From: Planctomycetota bacterium
Lineage (GTDB): Bacteria; Planctomycetota; Phycisphaerae; Phycisphaerales; Phycisphaeraceae
DNA: 64,000 nt
Reading direction: 5' to 3'
Assembly: GCA_024276075.1 (NCBI GenBank)
Contig: JAJRXX010000055.1
Location: forward strand, 1 to 64,000
Within the stretch, counting starts at the first letter, position 1. The number at the start of each line of letters is the position of its first letter. Both the position numbers and the translations under genes were made by a program. The notes under the pieces were generated by a model. That model was not told the origin of the DNA, made no database searches, and was given only the letters and a program-made list of their open reading frames with translations. Shown in pieces: positions 24,844-38,074 of this stretch.

Positions 24844-27615
<2,772 letters not shown>

Positions 27616-27634
27616 GCAATCGACCAATCAAGGG

Positions 27635-27640
27635 TATAAT
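27635..27640 (+). promoter_or_regulatory. -10 box TATAAT 6 bases before the 27647 gene (leaderless candidate)
   Basis: TATAAT followed by TTTCAC and the ATG. No Shine-Dalgarno sequence and no clear -35 box. Confidence 0.5.
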
Positions 27641-27646
27641 TTTCAC

Positions 27647-28393
27647 ATGCACTGTGAAAAAATCCTCGTCACAGTCCGAACCTATCCAACCATCAGTACC
27701 AAGTACAAGGAGACTGTTTGCACAGGAGGCGTCACCGATCACGGTGAATGGCGTCGGCTATACCCAGTTCCATTAAGGTATCTTGGAAATAAGCAACAAT
27801 ATAAAACCTTCGATGTGATTACCGTGAAAGTCAAAAGCGGCAAAGATGGGCGACCTGAAACACGAACCCCAGATAATACTTCTATCCAGATACACACACA
27901 TTTGAAAGAATGGTCGTCTCGTTGCGAATGGATTAACAATTCGATTTTCGATTCTCTTCAAGAAATGATGGGTGAAGAGAGAACTATTGGCCCTGTCAGA
28001 GTCCGAAAAGTTTTGGATTTTGTAGCGAAACCAGAAAGTCCCGATTGGAGCAAGGCCGAAAAAGATAAGCTCCGACAGTTAGAGTTGTTTGATTCCCGCA
28101 AACCGCTTGAAAAAATACCTTTCGATTTTCGGTTGATATGGCAAGATGGCAATTCAGTTGAACACAATACCATGTTCAAAGCATGGGAAGTTGGCCAGAC
28201 TTGGCGACAATATCAATTGAGTTACGATGATCCTATCCAGGTTATGCGAGAAAAATGGCTTAATGATATCTGTGGATCAGATCGTGACATCTCATTTTTC
28301 ATGGGAAATCTAGCGGCACACCGAAGAGTATTCATGGTGTGTGGTATTTTCAATCCCCCTAAAAAGGTCAATACAAGTGAAACACTTTGGTGA
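27647..28393 (+). CDS. Conserved unknown protein, first gene of an AT-rich DUF488 cassette
   Basis: The 248-residue soluble protein starts MHCEKILVTVRTYPT, then TKYKETVCTGGVTDHGEWRRLYPVPLRYL. It contains FDVITVKV, TIGPVRVRKVLDF, IPFDFRLIWQDG and ends in the block DISFFMGNLAAHRRVFMVCGIFNP. The sequence looks like a conserved family, with an N-terminal strand and many charged and aromatic positions. I do not recognise a catalytic motif. Base composition is clearly poorer in GC than acnA and the HD-GYP gene on either side, suggesting recent transfer. It overlaps or abuts the DUF488 gene, so the two are translationally coupled. Function unknown; a defence or stress role is only a guess from the composition and pairing. 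Confidence 0.75.
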   Translation: MHCEKILVTVRTYPTISTKYKETVCTGGVTDHGEWRRLYPVPLRYLGNKQQYKTFDVITVKVKSGKDGRPETRTPDNTSIQIHTHLKEWSSRCEWINNSIFDSLQEMMGEERTIGPVRVRKVLDFVAKPESPDWSKAEKDKLRQLELFDSRKPLEKIPFDFRLIWQDGNSVEHNTMFKAWEVGQTWRQYQLSYDDPIQVMREKWLNDICGSDRDISFFMGNLAAHRRVFMVCGIFNPPKKVNTSETLW

Positions 28394-28937
28394 GATGGTT
28401 GCGAATCGACGTTCCAAAAATGCTGCGGCTTTAAGTGCTTTTGGTGGCTCTTGTGGCTTAGTTGGATCAGCGCACTACCGCACGATTCGAGAAGGTGGAA
28501 AAAGAACAATCTTTACGATTGGATACGAAAAACGATCTGGGGATGAGTTAATCAGTTTATTGCTTGATGCTGACGTGGACATCCTAGTGGATGTCAGGGA
28601 AAAAGCGATGTCTCGTAAACCCGATTTTCGCGGCTCGGCGTTACAAGCACGATGCGAAGAAGCCGGGATCCAATATGAACCAATCCCTGGGCTCGGGTCC
28701 ACAGAAGACCAACGATCAGCATTGCGGGAAAGCAGAGATATTGAAACTTTCCAGCGTCGTTTTCGAAAATATGCGAAGCGGCACTGTATCGAATCATTGG
28801 ATCAATTAGCAAGTATTGCTAAAAAGAAATCCGTGGCATTAATGTGTTACGAACGATGTCATGAAGATTGCCACAGAACTGGAGTCGCGGAACTCGTGGC
28901 TGACGCAATTAATGCGTCAATCATTGCAATTACTTAA
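28377..28937 (+). CDS. DUF488 family protein, second gene of the cassette
   Basis: The product carries the DUF488 pattern: IFTIGYEKRSGDELISLLLDADVDILVDVREK, then MSRKPDFRGSAL, GIQYEPIPGLGS, and the C-terminal VALMCYERCHEDCHRTGVAEL with clustered Cys/His. The biochemical role of DUF488 is not established; the CxExxxxxCHR stretch may be a metal or catalytic site. Start is uncertain: GTG at 28377 has AAAAAGG 9 bases upstream and overlaps the first gene by 17 bases, while ATG at 28395 is 1 base past that gene's stop. Either way it is one operon. AT-rich like its partner. Confidence 0.8.
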   Translation: MKHFGEMVANRRSKNAAALSAFGGSCGLVGSAHYRTIREGGKRTIFTIGYEKRSGDELISLLLDADVDILVDVREKAMSRKPDFRGSALQARCEEAGIQYEPIPGLGSTEDQRSALRESRDIETFQRRFRKYAKRHCIESLDQLASIAKKKSVALMCYERCHEDCHRTGVAELVADAINASIIAIT

Positions 28938-28996
28938 GTAATGCTATTCCAACGCTCCAGTGCATCTCGCCCTCACCCCCTGCCGTGCAAAATTCC

Positions 28997-30259
28997 TCAC
29001 GGAAACGCCGCTTCGAACAGATTCCTACGCTGATTGTGGTCGGTCATCCAGCCGCAGTGGCAGGACGTGCAGCACACCCCTCGCTCGTAGATAAAGGATA
29101 ATTCCTCTTCCTCGAACGAGTCGATCCGTAGGTCCGAACAGGCGTCGAGCCTGAACGGTCCTTCGAGCCGGTTGGCGGGCAGGTGGTGCCCCTTCGGGTC
29201 GAACGCGACCATGACCGTCGGCCCGAACGGATTGACCCGGTTGTGTTTGACGACCACCGCGGTGCACCCGTCCGTGAGTTGGAGCATCGACCCGATCGGG
29301 AACGGCTGGATGACCCTACCCAGCAGCTTGACCAGCACGGGGTCGTAGAAGTGCTCGCACGGGCCGTTACCCATCTCCCACAGCACGCACGGGTCGGTCC
29401 CCGCGTCGGCGTAGATCTTCCGGGCAGTCGCCGCGGTGAATGCATCAGCGATACGCACGATGCGTGTGAACACGTGCTGGTGGTCGCCTTCGACCCGGTT
29501 GGGGTAGCCCGTGCCGTCGAAGTTTTCGTGATGAGTTCTGACGATCATCTTGGCTATCGACGGGAAATCCGCGGGCAGCATGTGCGTGCCCATTGCCGGG
29601 TGCTTGGCCAGAAGCAAGCGGTCGCGAACCGATAGCTTGCCTGTATGCCGGAACATGTGTTGCAGCGGAACCATACCCACGTCGGCGAACATCGCGCCAA
29701 GCGCCAGGGGCACCAGATCAGCATTGAGGAACGGCACCAGGCCCGGCGGCGACAGGCGCCTGGGTAGGTGGCACCACAGAGCCTTGTTCGACCGAAATGC
29801 CAGTGCCATCACCAGGCTCAGGTAGCAGACGTTTACCGAGTGCACGATCAGGTAGTTGTCGTTGTCTACGTCTCGCTGCAGGTAAGCGATCGAGACCGGA
29901 TGTTCCTGCAAGTAATCAACGACTTCTTGGACCGTGTCGGTGATTTCATTCCACATCGCGGGGCTTACCGGTCTGTCAGCGGCCAGCCGATCATAGACTG
30001 CCGCTAGACAGCCGGTAAGTTTGCCCTGGACCATTTCGGCTACGTTCAGGTCGCGGGAGTCGTTCTCAAATTCGACCGCTCGGTCGAGGATCGGGTCACT
30101 AACCTGTAGATACGTGCCGGGGAATTGCAGGCAGAGTTTTTCGGCTTCCGGCTGGGTCAGTGTTTTTCCCGCAGGCAGCATGGTGCGGGTGTGGTAGATA
30201 AACGGCTCGGCTAGACGCATCCCCATCAGCGCCCATTTGGATTGGATTCGTAGAGGCAT
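28997..30259 (-). CDS. HD-GYP domain protein with a degenerate HD motif
   Basis: HD-GYP proteins hydrolyse cyclic di-GMP with a metal centre. Of 420 residues, the central part shows IVHSVNVCYLS, then ALGAMFADVGMVPL, LAKHPAMGTHML, THHENFDGTGYPNRVEG and RIADAFTAATARKIY. The GYP half is intact (HHENFDGTGYP, about residue 243). In the HD half the usual LLHDIGKI reads MFADVGMV: the metal-binding His is Ala and the following Lys is Met. The C-terminus has CCTSCHCGW. It may bind rather than cut cyclic di-GMP; this is inference. AAAGGAG lies 8 bases before the ATG at 30259. No receiver or membrane domain is seen. Confidence 0.85.
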   Translation of the reverse strand: MPLRIQSKWALMGMRLAEPFIYHTRTMLPAGKTLTQPEAEKLCLQFPGTYLQVSDPILDRAVEFENDSRDLNVAEMVQGKLTGCLAAVYDRLAADRPVSPAMWNEITDTVQEVVDYLQEHPVSIAYLQRDVDNDNYLIVHSVNVCYLSLVMALAFRSNKALWCHLPRRLSPPGLVPFLNADLVPLALGAMFADVGMVPLQHMFRHTGKLSVRDRLLLAKHPAMGTHMLPADFPSIAKMIVRTHHENFDGTGYPNRVEGDHQHVFTRIVRIADAFTAATARKIYADAGTDPCVLWEMGNGPCEHFYDPVLVKLLGRVIQPFPIGSMLQLTDGCTAVVVKHNRVNPFGPTVMVAFDPKGHHLPANRLEGPFRLDACSDLRIDSFEEEELSFIYERGVCCTSCHCGWMTDHNQRRNLFEAAFP

Positions 30260-30560
30260 GGCTCTTACTCCTTTCATCCGCGATCACGTTCCGTCTCGCT
30301 TACTACTTAAATGATCGGATTCAGAAAGGTGCGATGCAGTGAAAATTCTCGGTAGGGTAGCCTGTTCGGCGCTGGGTACGCGTTGTGGTGAAACTGGGCA
30401 AGCCCGGCTGGGTAAAGTGGGGAATCTAGCGGCGTCAACTAGATCGAAATAAGGGGTATCCCTATATCCCCAGGACGGATAGAAGTGGGTCGATTTCGTA
30501 CTCGACGATAGCTGGGCCAATCGCTTGAATGGCGGCGGTATCCAGCGTGAAATCAGCAGG
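30260..30560. other. Intergenic stretch without recognised gene
   Basis: Holds the ribosome site and presumably the promoter of the HD-GYP gene. I see no repeat, hairpin or gene in it. A 78-codon minus-strand frame here has no start context or family-like sequence. Confidence 0.5.
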
Positions 30561-33958: not shown

Positions 33959-35464
33959 ATGACCGATGAAGCCCAACTCATCATTGATAAGCAGTGGACG
34001 TCCAAGCAACTCGAGCGGAACCTGACGCGCGTTTTGAGCCCAGCGGTTTGCCGTCAGGCACTCGACGCGCTGGGCGACCCGAACGCGGACTTCTTACAGT
34101 TGGCGACGATTCTTCAGGGCGATCCGTTCGTCGCGGCGAAGGTGGTCGGCATGGCCAATCTGGTCGTGCGCGAGGGCCGAGGCGCGACCGTTCAATCAAT
34201 CGATCGTGCGGTGCGGGTCCTGGGCACGCGAAACGTGCATATGCTCGTGCTGAGCGTCATGCTTGCCGGGCCGTTGTTGAGCCTCGATGAGAATGTCCCG
34301 CGGCGAGTAGACCTGTGGCGGTGGGTGCTGGCGTGCGGGTTGGCGGGCGATTGGTTGGCAGGGGCGGCCACCGACGCTGGGCCGACCCACGAAGACACGC
34401 AGGAGCCCGAACAGGACACTACTGGGCACATGGTTAGCGGTTTGCTGCTGGGCTTGGGCTGCTTGGTGCTGCACGCGGGTTTGGGGGCAGCCTACACCAA
34501 GGCGCTGGGCACCAAGCTCAGGCCGATGTCACTGTCGCAACGCGAGCAGAAGCACCTTGGTGTGACGCATCATCGGGTGACGCTCTGGGCGCTCGAGTCG
34601 ATGTCGTGTCCCAAAGAAATGGGGCAGTTATCAGCGGCCCTAGACCGTGCGGACGACAAATCGACAGGTCTGTATGCCCGCGCGGTGGAGGTGATGGGCG
34701 CGAAGATCGCAGGCTTTGAATCGGGTAAGGCAGAGGCGTGGCTGATCGATGCGCTGCCGCGGATCGGGATGGACCCAAGCGGGTTGCTCGACGGTGACAT
34801 GCGAGACCTTCGTCGTCGGCTACGCGAGATTGCGAAAGTCTTTCAGGTCGACCTAGGCGATTGGCGTGGGCAGAAAGACGATTACCAAGAGGTGCTGCTC
34901 GCTGCGGGTAGCGCTATGCAATCGCTGATGGTCGACAACCTAAAAATGGCTGACTCTGAAGGTGTGAAAACCGAGGCATCAGAGGCGCACACCGACACGC
35001 TCACAGGGGCGGTCGAGCATGCCGGCTGGGAAAAAGCACTGGCCAAACTATCGAACGAAAATGATCGCGTCGGGCTGATGCTGGTCGACGTGGATGGTAT
35101 GGAGAAGCTCAATAATCGGCTGGGCCGTGCCAACGGCGATCGGGTGTTAAAGACCGTGGCGCAGGCGTTAGGGGCAGCGACCCCGGGGCCGTTACTGGTT
35201 GGCCGTTTCGACGGGGATAAATTTGTAGCGATCTTCCCGGTTTCCACGACCGGGCAGCTCAGTGAGGCCCGGGACGCGATCGTGGCGTATCTCAACCGTG
35301 GCGAGGCGACGATCATGGGCCAGCAAGTGAGCGTGAGCTTCGGCGGCGTGCTCACGGACTCGCAGACGCTAAAACAGAACTGGTCCGACACCTACCGCAC
35401 AGCCCAAGAGAGGCTCGACCAAGCACAACGGCAGGGGGCAAACGCATCGGTTCTAGAGGGTTAG
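33959..35464 (+). CDS. HDOD plus degenerate GGDEF signalling protein
   Basis: The 501-residue cytosolic protein has an N-terminal HDOD domain (residues about 15-125: LSPAVCRQALDALGDPNADFLQLATIL, GDPFVAAKVVGMAN, SIDRAVRVLGTRNVHMLVLSV). A helical middle follows, then a C-terminal GGDEF domain (residues about 345-495: HTDTLTGAVEHAGWEKAL, MLVDVDGMEKLNNRLGRANGDRVLKTVAQAL). The signature motif reads GRFDGDKFVAI instead of RGGDEF: one Gly is Asp and the Glu is Lys, so diguanylate cyclase activity is doubtful. It may act as a cyclic-di-GMP or protein-binding module. The stop TAG is formed with the first base of an R2 element. Confidence 0.85.
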   Translation: MTDEAQLIIDKQWTSKQLERNLTRVLSPAVCRQALDALGDPNADFLQLATILQGDPFVAAKVVGMANLVVREGRGATVQSIDRAVRVLGTRNVHMLVLSVMLAGPLLSLDENVPRRVDLWRWVLACGLAGDWLAGAATDAGPTHEDTQEPEQDTTGHMVSGLLLGLGCLVLHAGLGAAYTKALGTKLRPMSLSQREQKHLGVTHHRVTLWALESMSCPKEMGQLSAALDRADDKSTGLYARAVEVMGAKIAGFESGKAEAWLIDALPRIGMDPSGLLDGDMRDLRRRLREIAKVFQVDLGDWRGQKDDYQEVLLAAGSAMQSLMVDNLKMADSEGVKTEASEAHTDTLTGAVEHAGWEKALAKLSNENDRVGLMLVDVDGMEKLNNRLGRANGDRVLKTVAQALGAATPGPLLVGRFDGDKFVAIFPVSTTGQLSEARDAIVAYLNRGEATIMGQQVSVSFGGVLTDSQTLKQNWSDTYRTAQERLDQAQRQGANASVLEG

Positions 35465-35632
35465 AGCGTTTTCTGACTTCGCTTAGAGCACCTTGCATAA
35501 ATAATCGCCATGTCAGTTCTGGAGTAGGGCAGGTCATTGACCTGCCTTCTTCTTGGGGAGATGGAGAATAATTACGCAAGTTGCTCTAGGGGTTCTCAAC
35601 GAGCCGCGCCCGTCAGCAAGCGGGTCTTTGGT
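35464..35632 (+). mobile_element. R2 element, copy b, split by R1
   Basis: Starts GAGCGTTTTCTGACTTCGC right after the TA of the upstream stop codon. After the R1 insert it resumes with GGGGTTCTCAACGAGCC and GTCAGCAAGCGGG, matching the 40326 copy. The right end is not well defined; 35632 is approximate. Confidence 0.6.
35486..35586 (+). mobile_element. R1 miniature element (101 bp), copy b
   Basis: Identical over 101 bases to the copy at 2937. It is flanked by TA at 35484-35485 and 35587-35588, nested inside R2 sequence. Confidence 0.85.
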
Positions 35633-35721
35633 TTTAGAGCAGATAGCGTAATTAATGGTAACTATATACAAGGCTCATCAATTCAGGATGGGCTAGCGTA
35701 ATGGTACGCCAAGCCACTCAA

Positions 35722-35883
35722 TCACTTCTTCGGCTTTGGCTTCTTGGGCTTACTGCTCCGATCCTTCTTCCTCTGATCTTTTCGTATCTCGTCCTCTAAC
35801 TCGTCCTTTGAGACGGCTATCAAGCCCCGCATGAGGCGGTCGAATTTTATTTGACTGCCACGGCTCTTTTTGCGATCATTCAT
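35722..35883 (-). CDS. Small basic protein of unknown function
   Basis: A 53-residue frame starts MNDRKKSRGSQIKFDRLM, continues RGLIAVSKDELEDEIR and ends in a Lys/Pro tail (KPKKPKPKK). AAAGGGG lies 6 bases before the ATG at 35883, which supports it as a real gene. It diverges from the 160-residue gene at 35988, and both lie in a locally GC-poor accessory patch. The repeating KDEL/EDEIR helix plus basic tail could bind nucleic acid; this is a guess. Confidence 0.55.
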   Translation of the reverse strand: MNDRKKSRGSQIKFDRLMRGLIAVSKDELEDEIRKDQRKKDRSSKPKKPKPKK

Positions 35884-35987
35884 GTCATACCCCTTTCGTG
35901 TCGCGCCACGAGTACCAATTTGCCATGAAAGGCCGTAAGGTTACAATACCGCTTGGTTAACATGTATATGGCCAAGATTAAGAAAAA

Positions 35988-36470
35988 ATGAACGATACTC
36001 AAACGGCATTATTGGACCACTACCTGAAGCTGAGCGCTCAATTGAAGCGCTACGAGAGGGCCGCGCGTAGGGCTCATGATAAAGCGGAAAAGGTTCGGCA
36101 AGCTCGTGACGGCTTGAGGGTAGCGATGGAGCTAGACGGTAGCTGGAGTGATGAATACGAGTCTCCCAACGGCGCTCATCGTGTGCTATCTGATCGTGGA
36201 ACATTAACTAAAGCTATCCGTGAGGTTTTGCCGGAAATTCAAGGTCTTATTACGGTCAACAACGTGATCGACGCAGTTAATCTTAAATCCCCAGGACTAA
36301 TCAAACAAGGAAAGGCTTCGAGTGTTTCGAGAGCATTGCGAAGATTAACAGACGATGGCATTTTAGAGATTCTGAAGAAGGGGCATGGCAAAAGACCTTC
36401 AGAATATTGTCTCCCCGAAACCACTGGGCTACCTGCAAACAACGATGGGGGAGGTGGTCATGATAGCTAG
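35988..36470 (+). CDS. Unknown coiled-coil plus winged-helix-like protein
   Basis: The 160-residue protein has an N-terminal charged coiled coil (residues about 8-48: LLDHYLKLSAQLKRYERAA, HDKAEKVRQARDGL). The second half has a helix-turn-helix or winged-helix look (ITVNNVIDAVNLKSPGL, ASSVSRALRRLTDDGILEIL, KGHGKRPSEYCL). The SSVSRALRRLTDDGILEI stretch fits a recognition helix followed by a wing. It could be a small DNA-binding regulator of the accessory patch. No family recognised. A strong terminator follows downstream. Confidence 0.65.
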   Translation: MNDTQTALLDHYLKLSAQLKRYERAARRAHDKAEKVRQARDGLRVAMELDGSWSDEYESPNGAHRVLSDRGTLTKAIREVLPEIQGLITVNNVIDAVNLKSPGLIKQGKASSVSRALRRLTDDGILEILKKGHGKRPSEYCLPETTGLPANNDGGGGHDS

Positions 36471-36627
36471 ATAAGCGCCGAACAGACGGCCATGAAAAAA
36501 GCGGACATCGGCATCCTTCTTCTCACGGAAAATGCCGTGCCCGCATCTGGGCGCCCTGCAGGGCATCTGTGATCAACTGGGTGACTGTCGTAACTTGACC
36601 CAGTGATTCATTGGGATTTAATTCATC

Positions 36628-36657
36628 GGCTGGATGGTTGCGCATCCAGCCTTTTTT
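36628..36657 (+). terminator. Rho-independent terminator
   Basis: Stem GGCTGGATG / CATCCAGCC with a 6-base loop, followed by TTTTTT. It points along the + strand and would end transcription from the 35988 gene. Confidence 0.8.
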
Positions 36658-36717
36658 CATCTATCCTCGTAGTACGCTGATATTCTTACCTAAGAATACC
36701 AAACGACATGATGCAAG

Positions 36718-37671
36718 TCAATAGATGTGTGTAAGTTGCGCGCCGCCAACCAGTTGCGACCATGTTAGACGGCATCCAAGGACACGCCCCATAACCCGCT
36801 GGAATCGCCCGCCGTCGTCTAGCTTGCGAGCATTGAATCTCTCTACTTGCTCGTCGAGGTAGGCGTCTAGGTGATCCGGGGCTACGGCAACGTATGTACC
36901 CGCCAAGGATCGCTTGAGAAGACTCCAGAAGTTCTCCATGCAGTTTGTGTGAACTTCGCCACGAACATATTCGATGGCATGGTCAATCATCTTGTGGACG
37001 TAGCTGTCGTGTAGCCCAACATAGCTGGACAAGGTGTCTGTATAGACAGCAGAGCCAGGGTCAACGTTCTCTCGGATTATCCGCTGCAACGTACCACGTT
37101 TTTGGTTGGGGACGACTTTGGCCTTTACCTCGCCACCGCGTTCGATGATCCCCTGAACCACGGCTTTGCCAACCTAACCTCGGCCCTTGGGCTTCTTCGC
37201 GCGTTTGCTCTTGTGCATGTTTGAGAACTTGCCGCCTACGAAGGTTTCGTCACCCTCGATTGTACCTCTTATCTTTTTGAAGCTCTTGGTCTGCATTGCG
37301 AGCCGAATACGGTGCAGCATGAACCAAGCGGTCTTCTGAGTGACCTTGATAGCCCGTGCTAGCTCACAAGAGCTAATCCCGTTCTTAGCGTTGGCGATGC
37401 ACCAGACCGCCACAAACCACTTCTGTAGCGGCAAGGGGCTATCCTCAAAAATCGTGTCTACCTTGGTCGAAAACTGCTTGCGGCAATCCTTGTCCCGGCA
37501 CTGTAACATGCAGCGGGATTTAATTTGGCCTACGTTTTCACTCTGACACTTAGGGCAAACGACCACGCCATCAGGCCACTTGATCGACTTCATGTATTCG
37601 TGGCATACTTGTGGATCGGCGAAGAATGTGACGGCTTCGATTAGACTGGTGGGGTGTGTTTCACTCATCAT
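36718..37671 (-). pseudogene. IS1595/ISXO2-type transposase interrupted by an in-frame stop
   Basis: Two minus-strand frames in the same reading frame make one transposase. The first (37671 to 37174) has the N-terminal zinc ribbon (CPKCQSENV...CRDKDCRKQFS), then WFVAVWCIANAKNGISSCELARAI, TAWFMLHRIRLAM, GTIEGDETFVGG. The second (after 37161) has VYTDTLSSYVGL, the Asp-rich core part, VRGEVHTNCMENFWSLLKRSLAGTY and ERFNAR. Between them is a single TAG (37174-37176) in GRG-stop-VGKAVVQG, where intact relatives continue. It is therefore a nonsense mutation, not a frameshift. DDE-type residues appear present on both sides. The terminal inverted repeats were not identified with confidence. Confidence 0.85.
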
Positions 37672-37717
37672 GCCCTTATTCTAAGAACATAGGTCTGATG
37701 AGTCAAGTATATAATTA

Positions 37718-37828
37718 CCTAATTAATCTCCGTTAGTCGGGTGGCACGGCTTGCTTGCAAGCCGTGAGATACAGAGACGTGGCGCACCAGCGACCCACCG
37801 GGATGGCGATTGTTTTTGCCACCTGCTC
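37718..37828 (+). mobile_element. R1-variant element (R1 ends, R5-type core), left end missing
   Basis: From TAATTAATCTCC through GGGTGGCACGGCTTGCTTGC to GATGGCGATT and a GCTC end followed by TA. It aligns with the complete 122-bp element at 49812, except that the first about 10 bases are replaced by unrelated sequence next to the transposase. This could mark the IS border. Confidence 0.5.
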
Positions 37829-37966
37829 TAATTGGCCCGCTCCCTGACGGTCGCGGCTCATTGCGGCGACGCTCGAATCCAAGCTGACCCACGACCCAAT
37901 TTTGCGTAAAATCTTGACGCGGTGGAGACAGGCAGATAGTGTCTATTTGAAGCGGTTTGCCAGCAT

Positions 37967-38074
37967 AATACCAATCGAGATTAATATTATCGCGATATCT
38001 GCGAACGCGGGGACCCAACAGACAATAACTTATACATCACTTACGACGCGCTAAAAATATACGCAATGCGTATA
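37967..38074 (+). repeat. R3 dispersed element, copy c
   Basis: Starts ATACCAATCGAGATTAATAT, contains CAGACAATAACTTA and ends GCAATGCGTATAAT. Its right end contributes a TATAAT (38071-38076) in front of the SH3b gene. Confidence 0.7.

Follow-up and report, generated by a model that had tools for sequence, protein, structure and literature searches.

Phage-defence candidates (PDCs) were derived by a 'guilt-by-embedding' approach, according to a preprint (Payne et al. 2024, cited in PMC12988326), and are described as mostly unvalidated (PMC12988326). Two of those catalogued in PADLOC are close to the gene pair analysed here. PDC-M19 comprises the components M19A and M19B and commonly has a long M19A, carrying an N-terminal domain, ahead of M19B; its embedding in restriction operons, which is the basis of the PDC approach, is visible in locus L085 and others. 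PDC-M45 is a three-gene candidate, and the PDC-M45-like loci of the Pfam class DuOB (PF22557, dual OB) encode a tandem-OB protein adjoining an active DUF488-N3a protein, usually with two DUF488 genes. The open literature searched yielded no paper on PDC-M19 or DuOB and no experiment on the M19 pair, and no assayed precedent for a DUF488 reaction was found in the accessible literature.

The DUF488 domain is reportedly placed in the rhodanese-phosphatase superfamily, within the RapZ-C-DUF488-DUF4326 clade. DNA-end processing is said to be predicted for parts of the DUF488 clade, and activities on RNA termini are reportedly predicted in the superfamily. In the archaeal plasmid versions of the pair analysed here, DUF488 is fused to ParB-N and HTH domains. 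An archaeal DUF488-HTH fusion with a ParB-CTPase fold binds CTP, as stated in a published survey (PMC12704722).

The window, i.e., the whole 64,000-nt stretch of planctomycete DNA under analysis, carries two adjacent genes whose products both match the PDC-M19 component models. On these matches, the pair is a PDC-M19 module, already catalogued as a phage-defence candidate; the first-pass annotation, which had proposed an undescribed two-protein system, thus holds for the biochemistry and not for the pair itself. Unlike the common form of PDC-M19, the Phycisphaerales clade represented here encodes M19B first and then a short M19A. The window DUF488 protein also lacks the ParB and HTH domains of the archaeal fusions, and M19 has one DUF488 gene, whereas DuOB loci usually have two.

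Layout and base composition of the locus

The pair and its surroundings comprise the following features.

Ending at 27615: acnA (aconitase), upstream neighbour of the pair
27635-27640, plus strand: TATAAT, 7 nt 5' of the M19B ATG, read in the sequence as a candidate -10 box of a leaderless promoter
27647-28393, plus strand: M19B (ORF1, gene 1), 248 codons, predicted tandem-OB protein, PDC-M19B
28377-28393, plus strand: 17-nt overlap of the two ORFs, provided that GTG 28377 is the start of M19A
28377-28937, plus strand: M19A (ORF2, gene 2), DUF488 protein, 186 aa from GTG 28377
28997-30277, convergent to the pair: HD-domain gene, downstream neighbour

M19A probably starts at GTG 28377. The alternative is ATG 28395, one base past the ORF1 stop, and the GTG is favoured because relatives conserve the residues encoded ahead of this ATG (KHFGE...RR..N..AL.AFG) and because the same 17-nt overlap recurs in locus L002; the ORFs overlap likewise in the closest relatives of the window pair. 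With either start, the genes overlap or abut (17-nt overlap or 1-nt gap), as had been proposed from the sequence. The leaderless-type promoter of the first-pass annotation fared less evenly. TATAAT is suitably placed and a leaderless start of M19B is possible on this reading, but AAGGG lies 12 nt 5' of the ATG, no -35 partner for the TATAAT passes the promoter scan, and the scan for sigma-70 promoters and terminators gave counts no higher than in shuffled sequences, with none at 27620-27647. An Rfam search gave no match.

The sharp drop in composition exactly over the two genes was confirmed, with 43.9% G+C at 27647-28937 against 60.6% in the 4-kb flanks; the change falls where the two genes begin and end, near 27600 and 29000. 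By gene, G+C amounts to 42.6% in ORF1 and 45.8% in ORF2 (acnA, 63.2%; HD gene, 60.0%), and GC3 to 0.40 and 0.37 in the pair vs 0.80 in acnA. No other 1.3-kb stretch in the window has a lower G+C (z about -5.4). Across the M19 family, the G+C of the pair is generally lower than that of its flanks (85 of 89 surveyed loci; median difference, 5 points). Low G+C is thus to some extent a family trait and does not on its own prove a recent arrival; the 17-point drop in the window is among the two largest across the surveyed loci. A further AT-richer region in the window, at about 35450-38000 with ~50% G+C, contains an IS1595-family transposase (36718-37671, minus strand) split in two reading frames, a zinc ribbon and a DDE part.

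Fold classes of M19B and M19A

The view that gene 1 is devoid of any recognised motif is overturned by its match to PADLOC PDC-M19B (PDLC04508), which covers residues 1-243 of 248 with an E-value of 1.5e-52; phrog_25907 is matched as well (E 7e-39). Pfam returned nothing above cut-off for M19B taken alone, and DuOB was not among its matches even at E up to 1. The class could be recognised by way of the structure and of the homologues. The AlphaFold2 model, built on a 58-member alignment, reaches a pLDDT of 93.2 and a pTM of 0.89, and its sole Foldseek match in the PDB with E <0.001 is CST on telomeric ssDNA. Later matches include an RPA filament, baculovirus LEF-3 on ssDNA, Teb1, a HIN domain, BRCA2, and POT1, with small-subunit ribosomal proteins lower down the list, and the top three matches in a viral structure library are LEF-3 proteins. 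A different arrangement of the two OB domains keeps the TM-scores low (0.2-0.4); the fold class of M19B is thus fixed, its domain arrangement is not, and the ligand can be transferred by class only.

Besides these structural matches, 6 of the 58 M19B homologues match the DuOB model directly (best E 4.9e-7). Profile-profile comparison with hhalign gives P of about 2e-6 in global and 8e-6 in local mode; the local score is 45, whereas none of 30 column shuffles exceeds 18. Judged by sequence and model together, M19B is a tandem-OB protein and a divergent relative of the DuOB class; it is filed as a relative rather than a member because the window protein alone falls short of the DuOB model. From the model, it is predicted to bind single-stranded nucleic acid or DNA ends, and its resemblance to RPA, CST, Teb1, and LEF-3 holds at the level of fold class. 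A match of gene 1 to KptA_kDCL (E 0.01, below cut-off) was rejected, the model being a tandem OB. Broader alignments yielded no searchable pattern.

M19A scores above cut-off against both Pfam DUF488 (E 5e-25) and DUF488-N3a (PF22751; E 9e-8, 32.9 bits vs a cut-off of 27). Against PADLOC PDC-M19A (PDLC04505), the E-value is 1.5e-35, and the match covers profile positions 147-285 of 294 only; the window protein is without the N-terminal domain of that profile. The Cys/His site noticed earlier is present, as part of a set of residues invariant across 47 homologues (D72, R74, Y100, G107, C157, E159, C165, H166, and R167). The AlphaFold2 model (pLDDT 91) finds as its top folds phosphatases of the PTP fold (DUF442, a plant phosphatase, SsoPTP, and KAP) together with diphthine synthase, at weak E-values, and such a PTP-like fold is what membership of the rhodanese-phosphatase superfamily predicts. 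M19A is thus an active-type DUF488 protein of the rhodanese-phosphatase fold class and a probable cysteine enzyme. The window genome holds one further DUF488 gene, a 147-aa open frame on another contig (G000:C42:7216-7542; L136, L141).

Unlike DUF488 and DUF488-N3a proteins in general, those of the Phycisphaerales clade carry a conserved N-terminal extension of ~48 aa, which in the window M19A is modelled partly at low confidence. Long M19A proteins of ~295 aa, with an additional N-terminal ~145 aa, are common among the homologues, and this additional domain shows weak similarity to SocA/Panacea (E 0.017-0.04) and DarG (E 3e-4 to 5e-3), as in L026 (7114-7998), L032 (7084-7974), and others. The domain in L032 bears a weak likeness to a type I specificity model as well. 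An antitoxin domain is absent from the window M19A, and the likeness to DarTG and Panacea-type toxin-antitoxin systems is confined to the long homologues.

Coupling, neighbourhoods, and transfer of the pair

DUF488 adjoins the gene 1 homologue in 92 of the 93 loci surveyed, which include genomes, plasmids, and one phage. Gene 1 is found in 14 of 392 evenly sampled planctomycete genomes, each time with DUF488 alongside (14/14), and the two occur together in 36/36 loci on IMG/VR viral contigs. Coupling of M19B with DUF488 is thus nearly universal, as the first-pass annotation had anticipated, and the lone homologue standing without DUF488 is that of the Sulfolobus plasmid pSOG2 (L012); on its sister plasmid pSOG1, the corresponding position is taken by a ParB-DUF488 gene. 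Two other apparent exceptions, L073 and L095, were rejected as an ORF-finder artefact or a contig end, since DUF488 is present in them.

The two genes are kept together in more than one order. Of the 89 tree rows in which gene 1 has a partner, 61 have DUF488 upstream and 21 downstream, on the same strand in both cases, and seven have it convergent; the arrangement changes at least four times along the tree, which means that the genes were reshuffled yet kept together. The distances of M19A and M19B co-vary (Mantel r 0.83, reached in 0/2000 permutations), as is also expected from the shared history of a linked pair. No natural M19A-M19B fusion was seen in the first survey. The same plan extends to DuOB proteins of planctomycetes, which have one DUF488 gene or two beside them, including one of the active N3a type where scanned, and M19 can therefore be regarded as the one-DUF488 version of the DuOB plan. 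The planctomycete DuOB genes of L101-L105, L014, L015, and L098 mostly have two DUF488 neighbours, which fits PDC-M45.

Carriers of the pair are found in Planctomycetota, Bacteroidota, Cyanobacteria, Armatimonadota, Actinomycetota, Pseudomonadota, Nitrospirota, archaea, and temperate phages. A laboratory strain, Niabella aurantiaca DSM 17617, has the pair as well. Eight Phycisphaerales-type rows, the window copy among them, form a clade with full support (46-56% identity). Among the 101 related genomes searched, none from the family of the window genome shares the pair with it, and the four further carriers come from outside that family but within the order. These genomes thus give no sign of vertical inheritance in close relatives. 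No other pair-bearing relative has acnA or the HD gene beside the pair. The pair is therefore a mobile module, acquired as a unit, in line with the transfer suggested earlier. No direct repeats were found flanking it, and although acnA is present in almost all relatives, the gene downstream of it is not conserved, so that the comparison through acnA showed no clean empty site.

In some genomes, the pair is surrounded by restriction genes. In L085, it sits between HsdS and HsdR. It is preceded directly by a type I HsdR-HsdM-HsdS set plus a further small gene in L052, by HsdS in L060, and by a type ISP restriction enzyme in L025; in L095, an AIPR gene lies downstream. The restriction neighbours are individual examples, to be read without a background rate for random loci. 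Ordinary genes surround many of the homologues as well as the window copy: next to the window pair, no defence genes were found, and the neighbours are housekeeping or signalling genes. The stress or defence module that had been suggested is thus plausible by its PADLOC class and by the restriction-modification neighbours in some genomes, but no sign of a defence island was seen in the window.

Mobile elements carry the pair as well. It is found on conjugative plasmids of Rhizobium and others. Plasmid neighbours include RadC and an SSB protein in L158, and RecT and a PD-(D/E)XK nuclease in L011. In a Gordonia temperate phage, it adjoins the immunity repressor, with the integrase nearby. In this Nymphadora group (L006, 5018-7265), genes 43 (M19B) and 42 (DUF488) are convergent, stand directly beside the annotated repressor, and are both annotated as hypothetical. 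In archaea, a ParB-HTH-DUF488 fusion precedes the M19B homologue on pBEU9E1 and pSOG1, and the homologue on the Haloquadratum walsbyi plasmid PL100 (L197, 2893-5083) stands beside a ParB-DUF488 fusion, in a locus adjoining two DNA methyltransferase genes. On Sulfolobales plasmids (L157, 2936-5352; L198, 3001-5423; L012, 5995-7355), the M19B homologue is followed by a protein of 163-168 aa without Pfam match, whose motif IEID...AFExKLAS could fit a PD-(D/E)XK nuclease.

Possible roles of the module

The reading that we favour, tentatively and at somewhat less than an even chance, is that a tandem-OB reader brings the DUF488 cysteine enzyme to nucleic acid ends in conflicts with mobile elements. 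M19B would grip single-stranded DNA or exposed DNA ends, for which phage or plasmid entry, replication, and restriction are candidate sources. M19A would be recruited to it, in a physical complex that we infer, and its invariant Cys/Asp/Arg/His site would act on a nucleotide or on the end of a nucleic acid, by modification or cleavage. As an outcome, the invading element might be hindered, or the ends left by neighbouring restriction systems might be processed. This reading brings together the matches to PDC-M19A and PDC-M19B, an adjacency that is nearly universal through three arrangements in bacteria, archaea, and viruses, and the co-variation of the two proteins. It also accommodates the proximity of the M19B model to ssDNA binders (CST, RPA, LEF-3, Teb1, and POT1), the DUF488-N3a match of M19A with its catalytic-type residues and PTP-fold matches, and the DuOB proteins of the same phylum, which likewise adjoin one or two DUF488 genes. 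The restriction neighbours of L085, L052, L060, and L025, the AIPR gene of L095, and the position beside a phage immunity repressor would fit conflict as the purpose. Against it stand the ordinary neighbourhoods of the window copy and of many homologues, a ligand assigned by class from low TM-scores, and a literature in which neither an experiment nor an assayed DUF488 reaction was found.

A toxin-antitoxin or abortive-infection module, in which one toxic protein is restrained by its partner or by an additional domain until infection and DUF488 would act on nucleotides, NAD derivatives, or DNA, is unlikely. The compact, overlapping, and mobile two-gene format, the SocA/Panacea- and DarG-like domains of long M19A homologues, and the abortive-infection-type AIPR gene adjoining L095 would all suit it. 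However, those antitoxin-domain matches are below cut-off, the window M19A has just its ~48-aa extension in their place, and gene order varies among three arrangements, whereas many toxin-antitoxin operons keep theirs.

A role as an accessory of DNA repair or replication, i.e., an end-cleaning module of mobile elements and hosts rather than a weapon, seems a little more unlikely still. The likeness of M19B to RPA, CST, and Teb1, the plasmid neighbours of L158 and L011, and the ParB-DUF488 fusions on archaeal plasmids are consistent with such a role, but the rare and patchy occurrence (14/392 planctomycete genomes) and the embedding in restriction operons, unusual for repair genes, argue against it. 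Repair or modification of RNA ends, for instance of tRNA, is improbable: OB folds also bind RNA, ribosomal proteins figure lower in the fold list, and RNA-terminus activities are, as noted above, reportedly predicted in the superfamily, but the best fold matches are ssDNA binders, no recurrent RNA ligase, kinase, or tRNA-related neighbour was found among the homologues, and the KptA-like match is contradicted by the OB model. That two unrelated genes lie side by side and share their low G+C only is refuted by a pair that stays together through rearrangements in nearly all loci, in every planctomycete genome with gene 1, and on all the viral contigs.

Going beyond the reading favoured above, the M19 and DuOB-DUF488 loci might belong to a single ancient class of systems that spans the domains of life and senses and processes nucleic-acid ends, each made up of a tandem-OB reader and its obligate partner, a cysteine enzyme of the PTP/rhodanese fold. 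The reaction of this enzyme on DNA (or nucleotides) would be new to defence systems, and archaea would have added a ParB-type CTP switch and possibly a nuclease. We regard this wider proposal as doubtful at present.

New here are the recognition of gene 1 as a tandem-OB protein related to DuOB, the PTP/diphthine-synthase-type model of gene 2, the near-absolute coupling of gene 1 with DUF488 in bacteria, archaea, and viruses alike, the occurrence of homologues within type I restriction operons, by a phage repressor, and on plasmids, and the link to ParB in archaea. The M19 and DuOB-type M45 candidates, listed separately in PADLOC, thereby join the archaeal ParB-DUF488 proteins in a single kind of system. 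Few families of 'unknown function' are older than DUF488, and an obligate mobile partner with an ssDNA-binding fold suggests which class of substrate it is likely to act on and brings its function within reach of a test on a single reconstituted pair.
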